Below, in pieces: positions 2,948 through 18,833 of a DNA stretch of 41,695 nucleotides (positions are counted from its first letter, which is position 1; the number at the start of each line of letters is the position of its first letter). The position numbers and the translations under genes were made by a program. The stretch is from a virus, in the IMG/VR virus record IMGVR_UViG_3300021512_000007, positions 1-41,695 of that record. The stretch is one strand, 5' to 3'. The notes beneath the pieces were generated by a model that saw nothing but the letters and a program-made list of their open reading frames with translations, had not been told where the DNA came from and ran no database searches.

Positions 2948-2958
2948 TAACTACTCTT

Positions 2959-3402
2959 TTAAAATTCTTTAATTAATTTGGACTGCTGATATGAGCCGCT
3001 GTAACCACACTCAACATAATATTCACTTTTGTGCTTCGCTGTACTGTACGTCACGTTACACCAGCCGGCTGCTTTCAACTCGTTCATTATAACAACACCG
3101 TCTTTTGTTATAGCGCCTTTTTTGATCATAGCTTTATGCGCATTGACTATTTCATCATGTTGCGATTGTGCTATAAAATTCAGATCGTCTTTATTATTCA
3201 AATTAGGCTTATAAATTGTAAAGTATGTCTCGTATCTGAAAAACACGTCACCTTCGGAAATTTGCGCATCATCTTCAAAATAGAACCAACCGTGCTCTAC
3301 CATTTTATCAATGTATCGCTTGCGTGCTGCTCCCACTCTACTTACATTTTTTAAACAATCATGCGCATTAGCTACCGTTATACGTTTTCGTAACACTCTC
3401 AT
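2959..3402 (-). CDS. hypothetical protein, 147 aa
   Basis: First gene behind the promoter at 3437-3465. The ATG at 3402 has CAGGAT about ten bases upstream and is preferred over an in-frame TTG at 3444, which would overlap the promoter -10 box. The product is a soluble mixed alpha/beta protein with a basic N-terminus and aromatic segments; it is not recognised. It is probably co-transcribed with the genes down to 442. Confidence 0.65.
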   Translation of the reverse strand: MRVLRKRITVANAHDCLKNVSRVGAARKRYIDKMVEHGWFYFEDDAQISEGDVFFRYETYFTIYKPNLNNKDDLNFIAQSQHDEIVNAHKAMIKKGAITKDGVVIMNELKAAGWCNVTYSTAKHKSEYYVECGYSGSYQQSKLIKEF

Positions 3403-3436
3403 TTTATCAATCCTGTTTTGCTCAAAAGAAGTGGTT

Positions 3437-3465
3437 ATTATCAAGTGTCACGTTGATCGCGTCAA
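3437..3465 (-). promoter_or_regulatory. sigma-70 promoter of the left-end leftward operon
   Basis: On the minus strand TTGACG (3465-3460) and GATAAT (3442-3437) are 17 bp apart. The octamer ACACTTGA occurs twice here, once over the -35 box and once at the -10 box, a possible regulator site. The first start codon lies 35 bp downstream. Confidence 0.6.
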
Positions 3466-3492
3466 GTGTTTTGTTGATTACCTCTACTTCCA

Positions 3493-3524
3493 CCTCTTCC
3501 TGGTCTCCTGGCCTCCTGGCCTAC
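3493..3524. repeat. 8-bp repeats inverted relative to the left-edge array
   Basis: Four 8-bp units related to TGGCCTCC. The minus strand reads as GCCAGGAG-type units, the same unit found on the plus strand at 213-228. The left-end operon is therefore bounded by inverted copies of one repeat family. Confidence 0.7.
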
Positions 3525-3533
3525 TGCCTCCTT

Positions 3534-3629
3534 AAAGGGATTTTCGTAAGTCATTGATTTTAAAGGGATTTTCGTAAGTCATTGATTTTAAAGGGATTTT
3601 CGTAAGTCATTGATTTCAAAGGGATTTTC
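3534..3629. repeat. 28-bp iterons, three and a half copies
   Basis: The unit starts AAAGGGATTTTCGTAAGTCA and is repeated at 3534, 3562 and 3590, with a 12-bp partial copy at 3618. The first two copies are identical; the third differs at its last base. Tandem repeats of 20-30 bp just upstream of an operon resemble replication iterons or a multi-site operator. They are not a CRISPR array because there are no spacers. Part of the unit (TTGATTTTAAAGG) recurs once at 6145-6157. Confidence 0.85.
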
Positions 3630-3960
3630 AAATCGACGTTTTAAACCCTCATTCCACAGGGCGAAAATCATCGAAAACGCTTCCCCTTAAGGGTCGATGG
3701 AGGAAAAATTTTTAAAAATTATTATAATTTAGAGAAATATTATTGGGGTGAAAATAAAGATGGAGGAGGTGTTCTATGGAGATGAAAAGGGGTGATGGGT
3801 GAGGGCTGTCGATTAGTCGATTGACCGATTCAGAAGAGCAGGTGGTTAATTGACCACCTGGATTAGACTTACAACTCGATAAACCAATTAAGTAAGGTTG
3901 TCGTACCTGCTGCAATGGCGATTAAACCTTCTTTTCTTCTCTCTGACGATGCGTTCTACA
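3630..3960. other. non-coding stretch with a hairpin and a start-less coding remnant
   Basis: No convincing gene. There is a hairpin at 3839-3860 (CAGGTGGT/ACCACCTG, 6-nt loop) without a U-tract. On the minus strand, about 27 codons ending in TAA at 3869 read as a charged segment followed by a hydrophobic stretch that looks protein-like (ending NWFIEL), but an in-frame TAG precedes it and there is no start codon. It may be the tail of a decayed gene. The rest is AT-rich. Confidence 0.45.
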
Positions 3961-4706: not shown

Positions 4707-5159
4707 TTATTTTGTACCGGTTGACCCTACACCCTTGGTTCCTCGAGCAGTGACGGGTAACTCCTCCACAACTTCGATCCCGTTGTAGTTTACATGAGGG
4801 ACAATAACCAACTGAGCGATGCGCTCAAGCTCCCTAACAATAACAGGTTTTTTCGTCGTGTTGTGCAATGCAACCAGTAGCTCACCGCGATAATCGCTAT
4901 CGATAACACCCGCCCCATTAGCCAGCATGAGACCTCGCTTAATACCAACACTCGATCTCACCATCAGCAGACCGACATGTTTGGTGGGTATTGCTACACT
5001 GACGCCGCACGGGATGACCGTATTCCTTCCAGGAGCTATCGTCACAGACTCTCCCCAAGTACACGCTCTGAGGTCAATCCCCGCCGAACCCGATGTTTCG
5101 ATCTTAGGCGCGTTATCGCTGGTGATACGAATATCTTCGATTTTAAATTGGATTTTCAT
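4707..5159 (-). CDS. dut: dUTP diphosphatase (dUTPase)
   Basis: Hydrolyses dUTP to dUMP and pyrophosphate, limiting uracil incorporation and supplying dTMP synthesis; trimeric in this family. At 150 aa it has the usual length, with all five motifs: SAGIDLRA (25-32), RSSVGIKRG (68-76), NGAGVIDSDYRGE (81-93, with Asp87 and Tyr90), RELERIAQLV (109-118) and a C-terminal RGTKGVGSTG (139-148). In motif 5 the usual Phe of GFGSTG is Val, which may weaken stacking on the uracil. The start overlaps the upstream stop (ATGA), the last link of a four-gene coupled operon. Confidence 0.95.
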   Translation of the reverse strand: MKIQFKIEDIRITSDNAPKIETSGSAGIDLRACTWGESVTIAPGRNTVIPCGVSVAIPTKHVGLLMVRSSVGIKRGLMLANGAGVIDSDYRGELLVALHNTTKKPVIVRELERIAQLVIVPHVNYNGIEVVEELPVTARGTKGVGSTGTK

Positions 5160-5383
5160 CGGTTGGTGCGACCTCGTTTGCGTGAAGAAGTGGGTTTGGG
5201 TTGAGTCTCGATGTGTTCAGGTTTGGCTTGCCCGTGCGAGCAGAAGTCGTCACCAAACACAAACGGTCTTGTAAAATCACTCTCATGCAACCCCGCACGC
5301 ACAGCGATAGGTGTTGGCGGGTTTAAATGACACCTGTTTTCAGTTTCGAACACGCATTCCTCACAACAAATTAAATTGCTCAT
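5156..5383 (-). CDS. small Cys-rich protein, 75 aa
   Basis: Unrecognised protein with an N-terminal CCEEC-x7-C cluster and a later Cys-His pair, which could hold a zinc ion, and a basic C-terminus (KPTSSRKRGRTNR). It is ATGA-coupled to both the HTH gene upstream and dut downstream. A nucleic-acid or protein adaptor role is conceivable but not shown by the sequence. Confidence 0.6.
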   Translation of the reverse strand: MSNLICCEECVFETENRCHLNPPTPIAVRAGLHESDFTRPFVFGDDFCSHGQAKPEHIETQPKPTSSRKRGRTNR

Positions 5384-13129: not shown

Positions 13130-13156
13130 GCGACCGACGACCTGTCGGTCGCTTTT
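13130..13156 (+). terminator. rho-independent (possibly leaky) terminator before polB
   Basis: A 9-bp perfect GC-rich stem (GCGACCGAC/GTCGGTCGC), 5-nt loop and TTTT. It ends 16 bp before the polymerase ATG, with the polymerase ribosome site just after it and no promoter between. It is likely to lower polymerase expression relative to the abundant ssDNA-binding protein. Confidence 0.8.
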
Positions 13157-13172
13157 GGAGAAACAACTAACC

Positions 13173-15236
13173 ATGGTTACGCAACTCCGCCTCACCTGTG
13201 ACATTGAATGTTTACCTAACTATTTTCTGATCCTTTTTCGTAATGTCGATACGGGCAAGACGATTAAATACTCAATGTACAACGATCAATATTCGAGACC
13301 TGAAATATTGAGCCTCGTCCAGGCGACACTATCCTCGGCACTTATTATCACATTTAACGGCAATAGCTTCGACCTGCCGCTGATCGCATTATTTTTACGA
13401 GGGGCAGGCAATCTCCAGTTGAAAAAAGCATCGAACGACATCATCGCCAATCGGCTAATGCCGTGGGATTTTGAGCGGAAATACGGGGTGACTGTACCAG
13501 ATCATTGGGATCACATCGACCTCATTAACGTGGCGTTCGGCACAGCCTCGCTCAAAATCTATATGGGGCGATTGGGCTGCAAGAAGATGCAGGAAATGCC
13601 TATTGATCATTTTTGTTTTCTGATACCGAGCGATGTGGCCATCATCGATAGCTATTGTGTGAACGATAACGAGGGGACAGCAGAGCTGTTCTTCGAGCTT
13701 GAAGAAGCCATCGTGCTACGCGAAACAATGTCGAAAGAGTACGGGATCGATCTTCGTTCCAAGTCTGATGCGCAGATTGCAGAGCATGTGATTAAATCGG
13801 AATACCTGCGGTTGAAGCAGGTCAAGCTACCGAAACCAACGAGCAAAAAATCATATAAATACATGGCTCCAAACTTTGTATCGTTCCAGGGGGAGCAGTT
13901 GAATCGCCTTTTCGATCTTTGCGCGAGTGTCGATTTCAACATTAGCAAGAAGGGCGCGGTGCTCATGCCAACGAACGGTGTTGTGTGTAGCGAGATAATG
14001 TTACCGCCAGCGATCCATCGAAAGCGAATTGACCCGGTGCTCGTCCAGTCGATTCGAGCTGGCAACCTTTCGAAAAAGGATCTGAAGGTCGCCGGGATAA
14101 CACCGTCTATCGAGAAGATAATTATCGAGGAGCGTAAGGATGGGGCTTCATCGGAGGTAAAAGGTAAGGAAGTCGATCAGACTGCACAATTCGTCTATCG
14201 AGAGGGGGGTATATCGTCGGTCATCACGATTGCGGATAAGCCGTACAAGATGGGGATAGGTGGACTGCACTCGGTCGATACGCCAGGGTCGTATTATACG
14301 GACGACGAGTACCAGCTACTCGACATTGATGTTGCGTCATACTACCCGAACATAATTCTCAACGCGGGACTAGAGCCAATCCACATCGGGCCGATATTCA
14401 CGACTATTTACCGCGACATATTGCAGCGAAGGATGGACGCCAAACGATCGGGTGATAAAACTGGCGCTGACTCTCTGAAAATTGTTGTGAATGGTCTGTT
14501 TGGTAAGTTCGGCAATCGATATTCTGCTGTTTATTCGCCCGATTTGATGTTTCACACCACGATCACTGGTCAACTCTGTTTATTTATGTTAATCGAACAA
14601 TTCGAGCAATGGTCGATCCAAGTGGTGTCGGCAAACACAGATGGTATAACGCTCAAGGTAAAGAAATCATTACTCGAGGACCAGTTTCAGTCGATTGTCG
14701 AGTGGTGGGAGCAATGGACTGGGTTCAAAATGGAGTGTGTGTATTACGAGTCGGTACATTATCGAGATGTCAACAACTACCTGGCGGTCGATCAGGGCTC
14801 AAGGAAGGTCAAGGGTAAAGGGATTTTTGCAGACTCAGGTATTCGTAAAAATCCAGCCCACGCCATTGTCCGTGACGCCGTGTTCGCATTCGTTACGCAC
14901 GGTACTCCTCCCGCTGAGACAATCTTCGCATCAACAGACATTACACTGTTCCTTGAGGTGCGGAAAGTGGCAGGAGGGGCAGTCAAGGACGGGCAATCGC
15001 TCGGTGGCACGGTCAGGTGGTATATCAGCAATGCGACCGACACAGCGATCAATTACGCGAAAAACGGCAACCAGGTCGCCAGTAGTGAGCACGCTATGCC
15101 GATGATGGATCTACCTGATGACGGCTCAATGCCTGCTGATCTGGACTATCACTATTACATCGAGAAAGCGGTAGCGCTGATGACTTTAATGAAGATTAGA
15201 CCGGCTCAACAACCAACAAAACAGTTGACAGTGTAA
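13173..15236 (+). CDS. family B DNA polymerase with 3'-5' exonuclease
   Basis: Replicative polymerase of 687 aa. Exonuclease motifs: CDIEC at about 10 (Exo I), TFNGNSFDLP at about 60-66 (Exo II), YCVND at about 160-165 (Exo III, Yx3D). Polymerase motifs: A DIDVASYYPNI (about 383), B KIVVNGLFGKFG (about 435), C SANTDGITL (about 485). Motif C has Asn-Thr-Asp instead of the usual DTD; the Asp kept is the metal-binding one in well-studied family B enzymes. The enzyme is compact. ATG at 13173 is preceded by GGAG at a long spacing; an in-frame TTG at 13155 is less likely. The stop codon lies inside the next promoter. Confidence 0.92.
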   Translation: MVTQLRLTCDIECLPNYFLILFRNVDTGKTIKYSMYNDQYSRPEILSLVQATLSSALIITFNGNSFDLPLIALFLRGAGNLQLKKASNDIIANRLMPWDFERKYGVTVPDHWDHIDLINVAFGTASLKIYMGRLGCKKMQEMPIDHFCFLIPSDVAIIDSYCVNDNEGTAELFFELEEAIVLRETMSKEYGIDLRSKSDAQIAEHVIKSEYLRLKQVKLPKPTSKKSYKYMAPNFVSFQGEQLNRLFDLCASVDFNISKKGAVLMPTNGVVCSEIMLPPAIHRKRIDPVLVQSIRAGNLSKKDLKVAGITPSIEKIIIEERKDGASSEVKGKEVDQTAQFVYREGGISSVITIADKPYKMGIGGLHSVDTPGSYYTDDEYQLLDIDVASYYPNIILNAGLEPIHIGPIFTTIYRDILQRRMDAKRSGDKTGADSLKIVVNGLFGKFGNRYSAVYSPDLMFHTTITGQLCLFMLIEQFEQWSIQVVSANTDGITLKVKKSLLEDQFQSIVEWWEQWTGFKMECVYYESVHYRDVNNYLAVDQGSRKVKGKGIFADSGIRKNPAHAIVRDAVFAFVTHGTPPAETIFASTDITLFLEVRKVAGGAVKDGQSLGGTVRWYISNATDTAINYAKNGNQVASSEHAMPMMDLPDDGSMPADLDYHYYIEKAVALMTLMKIRPAQQPTKQLTV

Positions 15237-15253
15237 AGTTGTTTGTTTATAGT
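15225..15253 (+). promoter_or_regulatory. sigma-70 promoter reading into the cassette array
   Basis: TTGACA (15225-15230), 17-bp spacer, TATAGT (15248-15253). The spacer starts GTGTAAAG, the same left half-dyad as in the promoters at 18853 and 22294, so common regulation is likely. The -35 overlaps the end of the polymerase gene. The first half-attC begins 29 bp past the -10, so it could act like an integron cassette promoter. Confidence 0.8.
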
Positions 15254-15281
15254 GGGTCTTCTTTAGATGAGATTAATTAAT

Positions 15282-15318
15282 ACAGTCCGAACGAAGTGAC
15301 TTAATGTGATTGTTATGT
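15282..15318 (+). other. half attC site at the left end of the cassette array
   Basis: ACAGTCCGA and, ten bases on, CTTAATGTGATTGTTA are both shared with the right half of the attC at 17631-17702. It ends in the R'-like core GTTATGT (15312-15318). The left half is missing and replaced by phage promoter sequence, so the array was joined to the phage through a truncated attC. Confidence 0.7.
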
Positions 15319-15468
15319 GATTTTAATTTAGGAGTATAAGTATGTGTGAGGTACCAAACAGCATAAATGCGGCGGGGCGCGTTGATACAAATATAACGAC
15401 TTGCATAACTGGTGTGGAACGAAGCGAAGCGAAGCGCACCACTTTACCGCGTCACCTGGATTTACTTG
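15313..15468 (+). other. cassette 0, very short, with a truncated reading frame
   Basis: About 156 bp between two R' cleavage points. It has a strong ribosome site (TTTAGGAG) and an ATG at 15342, but the frame runs without a stop through its own attC and into the frame of the next cassette gene. A fused 133-aa product is possible. More likely the cassette lost its coding body and is a leader remnant. Confidence 0.55.
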
Positions 15469-15474
15469 TTAGGC
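15391..15474 (+). other. attC site 1
   Basis: R'' ATATAAC (15391-15397), R' GTTAGGC (15468-15474), 84 bp, with an inner stem GGTG/CACC around a GAAGC-repeat loop. R'' is one base off the ACATAAC expected from the cassette's start TTATGT. Confidence 0.65.
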
Positions 15475-15509
15475 GTGAACGAAGCCTACTTAAACTGAGG
15501 ACTGATAGA

Positions 15510-15743
15510 ATGGATTTTAAACCACCAAAAGCTTCTGATGCCATAGAAGCCATTCAGAAACTGATCGATGAAAATGGAGATTTGCCAATTGCTCTTGATG
15601 ACCCAGATACAGGGTGGACTATGCCGATTGGCGTAGAGGTACAATCCCTAGACGGTGAAAAGTTAATCATGATTACTAGCGCATATCATGGTGAACCAGA
15701 TGGCTGTATTGGCGAATACACGGAGAGGGATTCAGACGCCTAA
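15510..15743 (+). CDS. cassette 1 protein, 77 aa
   Basis: Hypothetical acidic protein. ATG at 15510 is preceded by GAGG and lies 41 bp into the cassette. The sequence (SDAIEAIQKLIDENGDLPIALDDPDTG, then a GVEVQSLDGEKLIMI strand) resembles small proteins in which a helix is followed by a beta sheet, but no function is known. Its TAA is part of the attC core GCCTAAC, typical of cassette genes. The same frame is open upstream to 15342 across an attC. Confidence 0.7.
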   Translation: MDFKPPKASDAIEAIQKLIDENGDLPIALDDPDTGWTMPIGVEVQSLDGEKLIMITSAYHGEPDGCIGEYTERDSDA

Positions 15744-15798
15744 CGCTCGCATAAACTGCGAAGCGCCAGCGGAGTCAGAATTAATGCGATTGTTATGC
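15738..15798 (+). other. attC site 2
   Basis: 61 bp. R'' GCCTAAC (15738-15744) is the exact complement of the cassette's own start GTTAGGC at 15468. R' GTTATGC (15792-15798). CGCATAA pairs with TTAATGCG with one extra base, the extrahelical base expected in attC hairpins. Confidence 0.85.
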
Positions 15799-15827
15799 TT
15801 TTAAACCATATAAATAAGGGTATTAAA

Positions 15828-15992
15828 ATGGAAAACGAAATATTAAAAGACATTATTAACTACGCTACCAAGAAATTAAATGCGGCCTACGGGTATTGTG
15901 GTGTGGCAGAAGGCCCAAAAATGGCCTTCCTTAACTCAGATGACGGTAACTGCAATGATATTAAGATAAAAATAACTCTGGAAAAAGAGTAG
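15828..15992 (+). CDS. cassette 2 protein a, 54 aa
   Basis: Small hypothetical protein beginning MENEILKDIINYATKKLN, an N-terminal amphipathic helix followed by a loop and strand. ATG with AAGGG upstream. Its stop is 4 bp before the next ATG, so the two genes form a pair inside one cassette, the arrangement seen in some toxin-antitoxin or two-gene cassettes; no toxin family is recognised. Confidence 0.6.
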   Translation: MENEILKDIINYATKKLNAAYGYCGVAEGPKMAFLNSDDGNCNDIKIKITLEKE

Positions 15993-15996
15993 AAAC

Positions 15997-16281
15997 ATGA
16001 AAGAGAGAGCTGAGAAATTTGTTGTTGAATGGCTAAAAAATAACATAGATGCAAATGTGCTTGATGCTGTGTTTATTGATGAATTCGTAAACGCTACTGG
16101 ATGCACATTCTCGGTGACAACGTTGGGAGCAAATAAATGCAATTACGCCGGCAGAACGTTAAGTCGAATGTTTGGGGAAAACACATTAAAAAGATTTGCT
16201 GTCGGCTTGGGTAGCAACTATCAAGCTGGTTTTCCGAAATGGGTGTATAGCTATACTTTAAACGTATACCACCCTGCATGA
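15997..16281 (+). CDS. cassette 2 protein b, 94 aa
   Basis: Hypothetical protein with an N-terminal helix (MKERAEKFVVEWLKNNIDAN) and a basic C-terminal part (NYAGRTLSRMFGENTLKRFAVG). The layout suggests a small winged-helix-like or nucleic-acid-contacting fold, but no family is recognised. Its TGA lies in GCATGAC (16276-16282), one base from the GCATAAC expected for this cassette's R'' core. Confidence 0.6.
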   Translation: MKERAEKFVVEWLKNNIDANVLDAVFIDEFVNATGCTFSVTTLGANKCNYAGRTLSRMFGENTLKRFAVGLGSNYQAGFPKWVYSYTLNVYHPA

Positions 16282-16282
16282 C
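16276..16282 (+). other. degenerate attC R'' core
   Basis: GCATGAC overlaps the stop codon of the gene ending at 16281 and differs by one base from GCATAAC, the complement of this cassette's start GTTATGC at 15792. No matching R' follows, so an attC appears to have been deleted, merging two cassettes. Confidence 0.5.
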
Positions 16283-16320
16283 ATGTGAGCGGGAACAACA
16301 CACTGAACAAGGAGAACATC

Positions 16321-16677
16321 GTGGAAAACAGCGAACATAAAGAACCAGAAACCAGTGGTGAAGTAGCGAATCCAGTTGATGCAATTGTTAGTCAGAAGCC
16401 AAAATTCACAGCGGCCTGTAATAACTGTGGTTTATGCTGCAAAACTCAACTTTGTGATGTGGCAATAATGGCTTATGGGGAAGGATGTAGCGCGCCGTGC
16501 CCAATTCTGCTGGCTAATAACTTATGCGGAATTGTTGTGGCGGAAAAAGAAGCTGACTGCGGGATGGTTTCTAAAATGCTTGGAATAGGTTGTGGTTGCA
16601 GCATGCCAGATGAGCTAACTACGGATGAAGAAATCATTAAATTTGACACGAAAAGTTATATTAATATTTATGCCTAA
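16321..16677 (+). CDS. Cys-rich cassette protein, YkgJ-like metal-cluster type, 118 aa
   Basis: GTG start chosen because AAGGAG lies seven bases upstream. The sequence has ACNNCGLCCKTQLC, then CSAPC, CGIV, DCGM and GIGCGCSMPD, a dense Cys pattern like the YkgJ-type zinc/iron cluster family (CxxCGxCC). Biochemical role unknown; metal binding is likely. TAA lies inside the next attC core GCCTAAC. Confidence 0.7.
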   Translation: MENSEHKEPETSGEVANPVDAIVSQKPKFTAACNNCGLCCKTQLCDVAIMAYGEGCSAPCPILLANNLCGIVVAEKEADCGMVSKMLGIGCGCSMPDELTTDEEIIKFDTKSYINIYA

Positions 16678-16758
16678 CGTTGTTTTTAACTTGCGCCACC
16701 ACTGAACTTTAAATAAAACCGCAAGGCTTTCAGCGTCAAGTTGAAAGCCTTGTTATAC
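16672..16758 (+). other. attC site 3
   Basis: 87 bp. R'' GCCTAAC (16672-16678), R' GTTATAC (16752-16758). Near the ends AACTTGCGC pairs with GCGTCAAGTT with one extra base, with 9-nt spacers on both sides. A further 10-bp stem (AAGGCTTTCA/TGAAAGCCTT) lies in its right half. R'' is not the complement of the 15792 core, consistent with a lost cassette boundary. Confidence 0.8.
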
Positions 16759-16776
16759 GTTTTCGGAGCGACGACC

Positions 16777-17094
16777 ATGAAAAAAGAGATAAAAGTTAAC
16801 GTGTATCAAACACATGCGGAATGGGACTTGCCCACAAAGGCGGCGGACTTCCTGGCTTTTTGGAAGGGGAAGCTAGCACTAATCCCTGATGGTCATCGCG
16901 CAAATGCACAGATAGAGGTTGAAGCAATTACATCATACGATCAGGCTCTATTAGAAGTGACCGTAGGTTACACGCGGCTAGAAACGGATGAGGAGGAAAC
17001 GCATCGCGAAAAAAATGCGCAGGCAAGAGCTGATAATGCGGAGCAAAGAGAGCGATCTGAATTGGATCGCCTAAAGAGAAAGTATGGCGTATAA
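16777..17094 (+). CDS. cassette 3 protein, 105 aa
   Basis: Hypothetical protein; ATG with CGGAG nine bases upstream. The first two-thirds is alpha/beta (KVNVYQTHAEWDLP, ALLEVTVGYTRLE); the C-terminal third is a highly charged helix (ETHREKNAQARADNAEQRER), probably coiled. Its TAA lies in the attC core GTATAAC. No family recognised. Confidence 0.7.
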   Translation: MKKEIKVNVYQTHAEWDLPTKAADFLAFWKGKLALIPDGHRANAQIEVEAITSYDQALLEVTVGYTRLETDEEETHREKNAQARADNAEQRERSELDRLKRKYGV

Positions 17095-17175
17095 CGATTA
17101 CAATAAATTGCGACACTGAGAAGCTAAAATAGAAGCGGTGAGTTTGCTGCGTCAATTTGATTTTGCTTGTTAGGC
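17089..17175 (+). other. attC site 4
   Basis: 87 bp. R'' GTATAAC (17089-17095) is the exact complement of the cassette start GTTATAC at 16752. R' GTTAGGC (17169-17175). AAATTGCG pairs with CGTCAATTT with one extra base, as in site 3. Confidence 0.85.
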
Positions 17176-17195
17176 ATCGCTACGGAGCAATGAAG

Positions 17196-17399
17196 ATGAA
17201 TATTGAAAAGGGCTGTTTAGCTTTGATAGTAAAATCTACAACTGGGAATACCGGTACTTGTGTCGAGGTTGGGGCATTTATTGGTGCTGTGCCGTTTTTT
17301 GGTGGAGAGAATAGGTGGGAAGTAGACCCGCCAATACTAGCTAAGTACGGCGAACCTGTTAATCATGCTGACGAGTCCCAGTTAATAAGGAGATACTAA
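17196..17399 (+). CDS. cassette 4 protein a, 67 aa
   Basis: Hypothetical protein with Gly-rich beta-strands (MNIEKGCLALIVKSTTGNTG, then EVGAFIGAVPFFGGENRWEV), an SH3-like small-barrel appearance. GGAG fits the ATG at 17196 better than the one at 17190. Its stop is 1 bp before the next ATG. No function assigned. Confidence 0.65.
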   Translation: MNIEKGCLALIVKSTTGNTGTCVEVGAFIGAVPFFGGENRWEVDPPILAKYGEPVNHADESQLIRRY

Positions 17400-17400
17400 T

Positions 17401-17628
17401 ATGAAACTATTCGCCTGGCAGCCAAGCGGTCACGGGCAGCTCAGCTTCTTCATTGCAGCGGAGAACGAGAAGCAAGCCAGGGCAGCTGTTGATAAGTATA
17501 TTGATGCTCAGTTAAGCGAAGATACAATGACTTCTTTCGGTAGTTACGATGTTCTTGGGTGGGGGACTGATTATTATCAGCTAACAGAGTTAGATCCTGG
17601 GCAGGTTGCTATTAACAGCAATGACTAG
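17401..17628 (+). CDS. cassette 4 protein b, 75 aa
   Basis: Hypothetical protein, ATG with AAGGAG upstream. Compact alpha/beta pattern: strand KLFAWQ, strand LSFFIAA, helix NEKQARAAVDKYIDA, then aromatic strands. Forms a pair with the gene just upstream in the same cassette. Stop three bases before the attC core. Confidence 0.65.
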   Translation: MKLFAWQPSGHGQLSFFIAAENEKQARAAVDKYIDAQLSEDTMTSFGSYDVLGWGTDYYQLTELDPGQVAINSND

Positions 17629-17630
17629 CA

Positions 17631-17702
17631 ACCTAACGCCCACATAAGCGGCTGGCGCGTCAGCGACAGTCCGAGTGGAGCGGCTTAATGTGATTGTTAG
17701 AT
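17631..17702 (+). other. attC site 5
   Basis: 72 bp. R'' ACCTAAC (17631-17637) is one base off the GCCTAAC expected. R' GTTAGAT (17696-17702). CACATAAGC pairs with GCTTAATGTG with one extra base, the extrahelical base typical of attC. Confidence 0.85.
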
Positions 17703-17728
17703 TTGATTTTACTTTATGGGGAGACAGC

Positions 17729-17950
17729 ATGATCATAAAAGACAGCTTTCTAAGAACATCAGCTAGGTTTGCTTTAATCGTGTTATTTTGGCTTCCACCC
17801 TTTTTTGCTCTTTTCCATGAGATTAGTCGAGCGTGGTTTAATTCATGCCTGTTAAACCAAGTCAAATCTGAATATCGCGCATGGTGGGCCGCTTTAAACG
17901 ATACAAAAAACTACTTGGCAAAAGAGAAGGTTGATAAATTACATAAGTAA
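17729..17950 (+). CDS. cassette 5 small membrane protein, 73 aa
   Basis: ATG preceded by GGGGAG. The N-terminal part has one membrane segment (about 13-30, FALIVLFWLPPFFALF); the rest is a charged helix ending KEKVDKLHK. Function unknown. The half-attC core ATCTAAC begins right after its stop codon. Confidence 0.65.
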   Translation: MIIKDSFLRTSARFALIVLFWLPPFFALFHEISRAWFNSCLLNQVKSEYRAWWAALNDTKNYLAKEKVDKLHK

Positions 17951-17952
17951 GA

Positions 17953-17959
17953 ATCTAAC
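17953..17959 (+). other. half attC core at the right end of the array
   Basis: ATCTAAC is the exact complement of the cassette start GTTAGAT at 17696. No R' or inner stem follows; phage-type sequence resumes, with the next ribosome site at 17990. Confidence 0.7.
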
Positions 17960-18001
17960 ACTGGACTATACCGACTAAACAAAGTCGTAGGAGCAAAATC
18001 A

Positions 18002-18217
18002 ATGAGTTACAGAGCAACGACAAAAAGGAAGAAGCTCTGGTCTGAGCGAGCCAACATCAAAAAAGCGATGTTGAGAGGGGAAAGGGTTGCTCGGGAATCT
18101 GGAAAGATCAATGTGACCCTAAGAATAACGGTCGAGCGCCCGGGAACTGGAGAGACAGCCATCTTTGAATGTTCCGAGGGCGATCGTATCGATAACTACT
18201 GTGTATTGCAATGGTAA
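18002..18217 (+). CDS. hypothetical protein, 71 aa, basic
   Basis: ATG with AGGAG nine bases upstream. Very basic N-terminal helix (RATTKRKKLWSERANIKKAM), then beta-strands (KINVTLRITVE, ETAIFECSEGD). First gene past the cassette array. Not recognised. Confidence 0.6.
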   Translation: MSYRATTKRKKLWSERANIKKAMLRGERVARESGKINVTLRITVERPGTGETAIFECSEGDRIDNYCVLQW

Positions 18218-18308
18218 GTATCAAGGTATACAAAGTGTCACAACTATCACAAATAATCTGAGAAAGGCGCTGCCATCTTTTGGTTTTGCGTAACTATAGG
18301 AGAACGAC

Positions 18309-18407
18309 ATGACACTAATAATAGCGGTAATGCTCATTTACGGGTTGAACCTTGAGCCAATGTTGTACCCTTTTGTAACAGCTGTGTTTTTCGTCCCCTG
18401 GGAGTGA
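18309..18407 (+). CDS. tiny hydrophobic protein, 32 aa
   Basis: ATG with TAGGAG upstream; 32 residues (MTLIIAVMLIYGLNLEPM then a second hydrophobic stretch) ending seven bases before the VRR-NUC start. Probably a single-pass membrane peptide. The ribosome site and tight spacing support it, but shortness leaves doubt. Confidence 0.5.
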   Translation: MTLIIAVMLIYGLNLEPMLYPFVTAVFFVPWE

Positions 18408-18413
18408 GCCACT

Positions 18414-18833
18414 ATGACGACTACTGAGCACCGCCAGAACGATCTATTTGTCCCGCCTGTCGTCAAGGGTGTAGCCAAGTCAACACTGGAGAAGGATGTC
18501 GAGGCGAAATTGATCCGTAGGGTACGGGCCGCAGGAGGCATCAGCTGGAAATTCGTATCGCCGAATAATCGCGGTGTGAGCGACAGAGTTGTGCTGATCG
18601 ATGGTAGAGCTATCTTTGTCGAACTCAAGCGCGACGGGGGCAAAATGACACCTTTGCAACAGGTCTTTCGGGAAAAGGTTGAATCCAACGGCGGGGAGTT
18701 CGCATTGGTTGTAGGGATGGATGGTGTGGAGGGGTTTATAGCAAAGATCAAAGCCGAGCAACCCATGTGGCGAACATTCTATAGGGCGATCTGGAGCATG
18801 ATCGGTAAGTTTAGCGGCAAGACGAGTCCATAA
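18414..18833 (+). CDS. VRR-NUC domain nuclease, 139 aa
   Basis: Stand-alone VRR-NUC nuclease, a PD-(D/E)XK relative of the FAN1/Holliday junction resolvase group that cuts branched DNA. Catalytic pattern: an early Glu (E26 or E30), RGVSDR with Asp57, and FVELK with Glu70-x-Lys72, followed by Gln82. The usual Pro of GVPDR is Ser. Likely trims branched replication or recombination intermediates before packaging. Its start has GGGAG upstream. Confidence 0.9.
   Translation: MTTTEHRQNDLFVPPVVKGVAKSTLEKDVEAKLIRRVRAAGGISWKFVSPNNRGVSDRVVLIDGRAIFVELKRDGGKMTPLQQVFREKVESNGGEFALVVGMDGVEGFIAKIKAEQPMWRTFYRAIWSMIGKFSGKTSP

Follow-up and report, generated by a model that had tools for sequence, protein, structure and literature searches.

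How a row of integron-like gene cassettes comes to lie among the genes of a phage without an integrase, and by what means it would be changed there, is the question raised by a virus record in IMG/VR, linear and 41,695 bases long (IMGVR_UViG_3300021512_000007; this whole stretch of DNA is called the window below). Five hairpin sites with the features of integron attC recombination sites were confirmed at 15391-17702; a phage DNA polymerase gene lies on one side of them and a VRR-NUC type endonuclease gene on the other. From the sequence features described here, the block is probably an integron platform without an integrase of its own, set in a phage operon and made up of an attI-like site and cassettes with reversed open reading frames (ORFs), on which a host integron integrase (IntI) would act in trans.

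The five attC-type sites had been proposed in an initial annotation, and motif, pairing and covariance model (CM) analyses bore the proposal out. The bipartite motif RYNTAACAA[GT]-(55-130 nt)-CGTTA[GT]RY occurred five times in the window, always inside the block and always on the minus strand, compared with once in 1.91 million strand-bases of other phage loci. The CM, built from 37 bacterial attCs, detected 48 sites on eleven bacterial or plasmid loci and gave no match below E=1 on 46 related phage loci (624 kb). In the window, it found the sites at 15738-15798 (31.3 bits, E=1.1e-5, with only 8.8 bits on the plus strand) and 17631-17702 (23.2 bits, E=0.0013 over 17636-17697; eight of nine inner pairs), both on the minus strand, but missed those at 16672-16758 and 17089-17175, probably because of their base composition. 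The two missed sites each formed the full nine inner pairs in canonical register (three pairs, one extrahelical base, six pairs), with the extrahelical base in the L'' arm (shuffle P<0.001 for each), and the remaining site, at 15391-15474, was structurally the weakest with four of the nine. Summed over the five sites, 36 inner pairs were counted vs. a shuffle mean of 19 and a maximum of 29 (P=0.0003); the fold energies were modest. An attC array is recognized by at least two sites carrying R'', L'', L' and R' boxes and an extrahelical base, which the block contains, four of its five sites being supported individually and 15391 weakly.

A sixth attC, truncated to its R''-L'' half (15281-15318, minus strand), was recognized by similarity to an attC of a second phage (92% over 49 bp) and to chromosomal attCs (86-87%); its L'-R' half is absent. 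An Rfam search returned no matching family. A loose R-box scan did not separate the sites from background and was replaced by the CM and the polarity motif, and a candidate locus obtained with the pattern GCTTAATGTGATTGTTA (L088) proved to be a chance match within a phage coding gene. In the gene direction, one arm of the attC at 16672 (16721-16753) resembles a terminator, with a hairpin of 14 pairs and T-rich sequence after it.

Cut at the R boxes, the block was resolved into six cassettes on the minus strand, C1 (15281-15396), C2 (15397-15743), C3 (15744-16677), C4 (16678-17094), C5 (17095-17636), and C6 (17637-17958), of which C1 ends in the truncated attC and C2 to C6 own the sites starting at 15391, 15738, 16672, 17089, and 17631, respectively. 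The cassette-end complementarity noted in the initial annotation also held. In detail, the ends of C2, C4, and C6 were exactly complementary, the start core GTTAGAT of C6 pairing with its own R'' ATCTAAC, and those of C3 and C5 had one mismatch each. Over the six cassettes, 3 mismatches were found vs. 9 expected by permutation (P=0.014), and the P value fell to 5e-5 when the cassettes of the second phage were pooled with them. The end cores match across cassettes as expected of circular units.

The second phage (IMGVR_UViG_3300021512_000003, hereafter G255) was reached by scanning two attC patterns against IMG/VR, which yielded the locus L163, a part of that record; it comprises 81,888 bases with 127-base end repeats (loci L209-L213). 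G255 is otherwise unrelated to the window phage, encodes a tail sheath and has many relatives in phage PH101. At least 16 attC sites were found in it as CM matches, all on the plus strand, and its cassette ORFs, among them one for a DUF3268 protein, are mostly on the minus strand (reversed to forward, 8:1). Its reversed cassettes carry phage-type genes, such as a DNA methyltransferase (phrog_67, E=3e-73) and a phrog_1934 match (E=1e-49). The attC stretches common to G255 and the window extend over 49-77 bp at 88-92% identity, with 91% over 57 bp at the C3 site and 88% over 77 bp at the C6 site. DNA identity with G255 64871-66730 was also seen for two minus-strand genes of the window, at 1149-1612 (83%) and 1704-2075 (70%). 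The shared genes and attC stretches suggest a shared host for the two phages. When further patterns derived from these common attCs were scanned against IMG/VR, G255 was the only record recovered, which suggests a cassette pool that is rare in that collection or changes quickly. Two attC-like sites were also noted on the minus strand of a viral contig that came from an isolate genome (IMGVR_UViG_641228507_000005; 2954-3730 of locus L162).

Although the initial annotation stated that no attI is present, an attI-like site was found at the right edge of the block, at the array start in attC polarity (17953-17999, minus strand). It consists of a lone core G|TTAGAT at 17953-17959, with the G at 17959, and 40 conserved bases at 17960-17999. 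The sequence directly beyond the core, ACTGGACTATACCGACTAAACAAAGTCG, recurs four times in G255 with 3-4 changes each, always joined to a GTTA core and in all four cases at the start, in attC polarity, of a cassette array. Of the 40 bases preceding the core, 29 were invariant in the five-way alignment of these copies, as was the whole GTTA, vs. none of 53 positions beyond the core (after position 7), so that conservation holds up to G|TT and is then sharply lost. This pattern is what would be expected of an attI joined to different first cassettes. Between the R'' of the first cassette and the attI-side core, no mismatch was seen in the window or in two G255 arrays, and one mismatch in each of the other two G255 arrays. 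The site is attI-like by position and conservation, and no sequence match to intI-adjacent attI regions was visible. The right edge had been read at first as a broken attC, a reading dropped once the polarity was settled.

Beside the attI-like site lies a small plus-strand gene (18002-18217) whose product is 79% identical over 68 aa to one of G255. The DNA similarity between the two phages extends over 17948-18320 (79% over 378 bp) and spans both the site and the gene, which may therefore travel together. The gene product has 71 aa in the window and 97 aa in G255, and a 2-base difference near the gene end shifts the frame, so that the window copy may be shortened.

The repeat could also be a phage promoter or leader that stands before some genes, with its GTT used by the cassettes as an ordinary secondary (attG-like) entry site. 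In the window, and at one of its copies in G255, it is indeed followed by a ribosome-binding site and a gene, and secondary attG sites exist (Loot et al., 2024, as cited in PMC12901181), with insertion at G|TT outside a classical attI, as in the window. However, an attG is flanked by arbitrary DNA, while the flank in the window is a conserved repeated sequence. Further, all copies of the repeat found with ≤5 mismatches in the two genomes mark array starts, the small gene is missing after three of the four copies in G255, and no sigma-70-like promoter was scored in the repeat. A promoter or leader origin is thus considered unlikely.

The polarity of the array was judged from R'' being followed by AA, from the extrahelical base in the L'' arm and from a gene on the same strand, marks that agree both in class 1 cassettes and in cassette arrays adjoining a chromosomal intI. 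At all sites of the window, the canonical attC reading is the minus strand by the R''-AA and extrahelical-base marks, indicating that the R'' and R' labels had been swapped in the initial annotation. All credible genes, in contrast, are on the plus strand, as judged from a PHROG match of the C3b product, a relative of the C3c product, and good start signals in the others. Among Alteromonadaceae cassettes with a dominant ORF, 35 were forward and 3 reversed, while all five ORF-bearing cassettes of the window were reversed, for which the chance is ~3e-6 at the bacterial rate; the same polarity of ORF and attC, a usual though not strictly defining mark of cassettes, is absent from the window. By the same dominant-ORF rule, the window and G255 together gave 1 forward and 11 reversed cassettes, significantly different from the 35:3 of Alteromonadaceae (Fisher P=1.1e-7, an optimistic value because the cassettes of one array are not fully independent).

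This polarity bears on a rival account, in which illegitimate or homologous recombination within attCs brought part of a bacterial array into the phage in a single event, as one block, and no recombination takes place in the phage. Off-target homologous or illegitimate recombination was suggested by Qi et al. (2023) for the clusters of attC sites lacking integrases (CALINs) in phages (PMC9892861), the attCs of the window resemble chromosomal ones, and the left edge of the block is ragged, consisting of half an attC as left by a cut inside an array. A copied array should, however, be mostly forward, and the right edge is not ragged but a clean core common to the four G255 array starts; moreover, phage-type genes are among the cassettes. 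The initial annotation had described a captured array: integron-type cassettes in an integrase-less phage genome are indeed present, while capture as a block is the weaker account and, in our judgment, improbable. A further rival, in which these hairpins would serve the phage as terminators or regulatory repeats and only look like attC, is very improbable. The terminator-like arm at 16721-16753 and the modest fold energies speak for it; against it stand CM matches (E=1e-5 and 1e-3), R-box complementarity across cassettes, the polarity motif, and the recombination of PH101 sites of the same kind with IntI1 (PMC9892861).

In the reading that we favor, an integrase-less platform served by its host, the attI-like site at 17953-17999 and the cassettes at 15281-17958 would form the platform between the polymerase and endonuclease genes, and host-encoded IntI, acting in trans during infection, would insert and exchange cassettes, with the G|TT of the attI-like site and the attCs as its targets. 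Phage transcription would enter the array at its polymerase end, read the reversed ORFs, which do point in this direction, and continue past the attI-like site into the phage genes that follow. Forward cassettes would be silent in the phage operon, so selection would be expected to keep the reversed ones. Since an unrelated phage has this attI-like sequence, the small gene next to it and attC segments that are nearly identical, cassettes and platform may move between phages that share hosts. In Vibrio cholerae, recombination is raised when the recombinogenic strand lies on the lagging-strand template (PMC11023631), a placement that inversion of an array can bring about; the same effect could hold for the phage array, depending on the direction of the phage fork.

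Several observations weigh against this reading. One G255 cassette (4910-5236) is forward; it lies beside the attI-like site and is perhaps a recent arrival. The strand preference of the CM is not independent evidence alone, as its training set was picked with R'' followed by AA; class 1 cassettes, intI-adjacent arrays and the extrahelical base are checks on polarity that are independent of the training. The attI-like site is common to only two phages. A scan for the attI-like motif gave only one chance match in 395 genomes of the order and 369 of the class (3 mismatches; a reversed control pattern gave five), the sequence was not found in named phages, and a copy sought in PH101 was not found. 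In addition, the cassette proteins, searched in 9 genomes and then in 247 genomes of the Alteromonas family, had no relatives there, three weak matches (<18 bits) being set aside.

As the initial annotation had stated, an integrase is absent: no Phage_integrase domain, tyrosine recombinase or integron integrase was found either on the window contig or in G255. The block thus lacks the intI gene of a complete integron, and the enzyme must come from elsewhere. Likely donor hosts do have it, as eight of nine genomes with similar attCs encode an integron integrase over the curated cut-off. A 21-base pattern from three sites, scanned against 84,980 prokaryote species, matched 49 stretches, mostly in Alteromonadaceae and many of them in Alteromonas confluentis, the contexts of which show full attC sites. 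A chromosomal attC of Pseudomonas abyssi (L135, 3577-3655) is 86% identical over 43 bp to the truncated site of the window, past the core and into the cassette. From its sequence, the P. abyssi lineage is a possible donor.

The cassette genes of the window are all reversed vs. their attCs. C1 has no convincing ORF of its own, and C2 encodes 77 aa (15510-15743) in frame with an ATG at 15342 in C1; this ATG has a good ribosome-binding site and stays in frame through the attC to 15743, giving a possible 133-aa fusion with the C2 gene. C3 carries three ORFs: C3a (54 aa, 15828-15992, an ORF only), the phage-type C3b (94 aa, 15997-16281; phrog_24457, E=2.3e-16), and the Cys-rich C3c (118 aa, 16321-16677; 47.6% identity to a Janthinobacterium plasmid protein). 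The 105-aa ORF of C4 (16777-17094) starts with ATG and has its stop inside the core. C5 contains C5a (69 aa, 17190-17399; a weak phrog_2529 match, E=0.0012) and C5b (75 aa, 17401-17628; ATG with GGAG, no relative in genome_contigs), and C6 a 73-aa ORF (17729-17950) with an ATG and GGGGAG upstream. The proteins were also searched against Pfam, NCBIfam, and PHROGs; in plasmids and phages, relatives were found for C3b and C3c only, and nothing was found when the array DNA was compared with named phages.

The genome around the block is that of a phage, as the initial annotation had stated for both sides. It carries exonuclease, single-stranded DNA-binding protein, DNA polymerase, VRR-NUC type endonuclease, helicase, tail, and tape-measure genes, and replication and structural genes flank the block on both sides; a terminal repeat was not found at the ends of the 41,695-base record. 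The left neighbor is the polymerase (13155-15236, plus strand; phrog_1252, E=3e-169) and the right one the endonuclease (18414-18833, plus strand; phrog_93, E=4e-24). The G+C content of the block is lower (0.427 vs. 0.488). Relatives of the polymerase in IMG/VR were found with an alignment query and none with a single-protein query; in distant relatives, the order is polymerase, small gene(s), endonuclease, helicase. In the nearest relative (L022; polymerase 56%, helicase 66%), 57 bases separate the polymerase stop from the endonuclease start and contain TTGACA-17-TATAAT, and the window has a promoter-like TTGACA-17-TATAGT (11/12 consensus) at the same place, across the end of the polymerase gene and before the array (15225-15253, plus strand).

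Integron cassettes in phage genomes were described as rarely reported in the initial annotation, and their carriage is already published: Qi et al. (2023) described CALINs in phages and showed that attCs of the Pseudoalteromonas phage PH101, the Tetrasphaera phage TJE1, and P12002L are active with IntI1 (PMC9892861). Similar to the window, PH101 and TJE1 are lytic-type phages with attC cassettes and no intI. By the CM used here, the annotated genes of PH101 are antisense to its four attCs (NC_029094 75919-77987; L207 25919-27987), as in the window, while the cassette ORF of TJE1 that the rule can score is forward. The main text of that study takes up neither the orientation of genes with respect to attC nor an attI in these phages; an attI-like site at the array start, shared by two phages and with four copies in one, and the polarity contrast are not described there. 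Sedentary chromosomal integrons of Alteromonadaceae have the same attC type with the TAACAATCRCATTAAG arm (86-100% over 20-40 bp) but differ in their own intI, a different attI, and forward ORFs. Class 1 integron cassettes on plasmids share the R''-L''-L'-R' layout and polarity with the window, but have forward genes, resistance cargo, and intI1 in the family. Literature searches, mostly outside subscription journals and preprints, found nothing closer; phage CALINs are already known, and neither a shared attI-like site nor the reversed polarity was found described.

More tentatively, phages of aquatic gammaproteobacteria may run a cassette-trading system, with an attI of their own, phage-adapted reversed cassettes and the host integrase as its engine, through which DNA methyltransferases and other genes would circulate between unrelated phages. 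The analysis yields two things that can be tested, a defined attI-like sequence and a rule of polarity, and phage-type genes as cassettes bear on the origins of cassettes. If the proposed platform is real, phages would gain a site-specific swapping of accessory genes that parasitizes the host integron integrase, which would account for the mosaicism of small-gene regions and connect the cassette pools of phages and bacteria.

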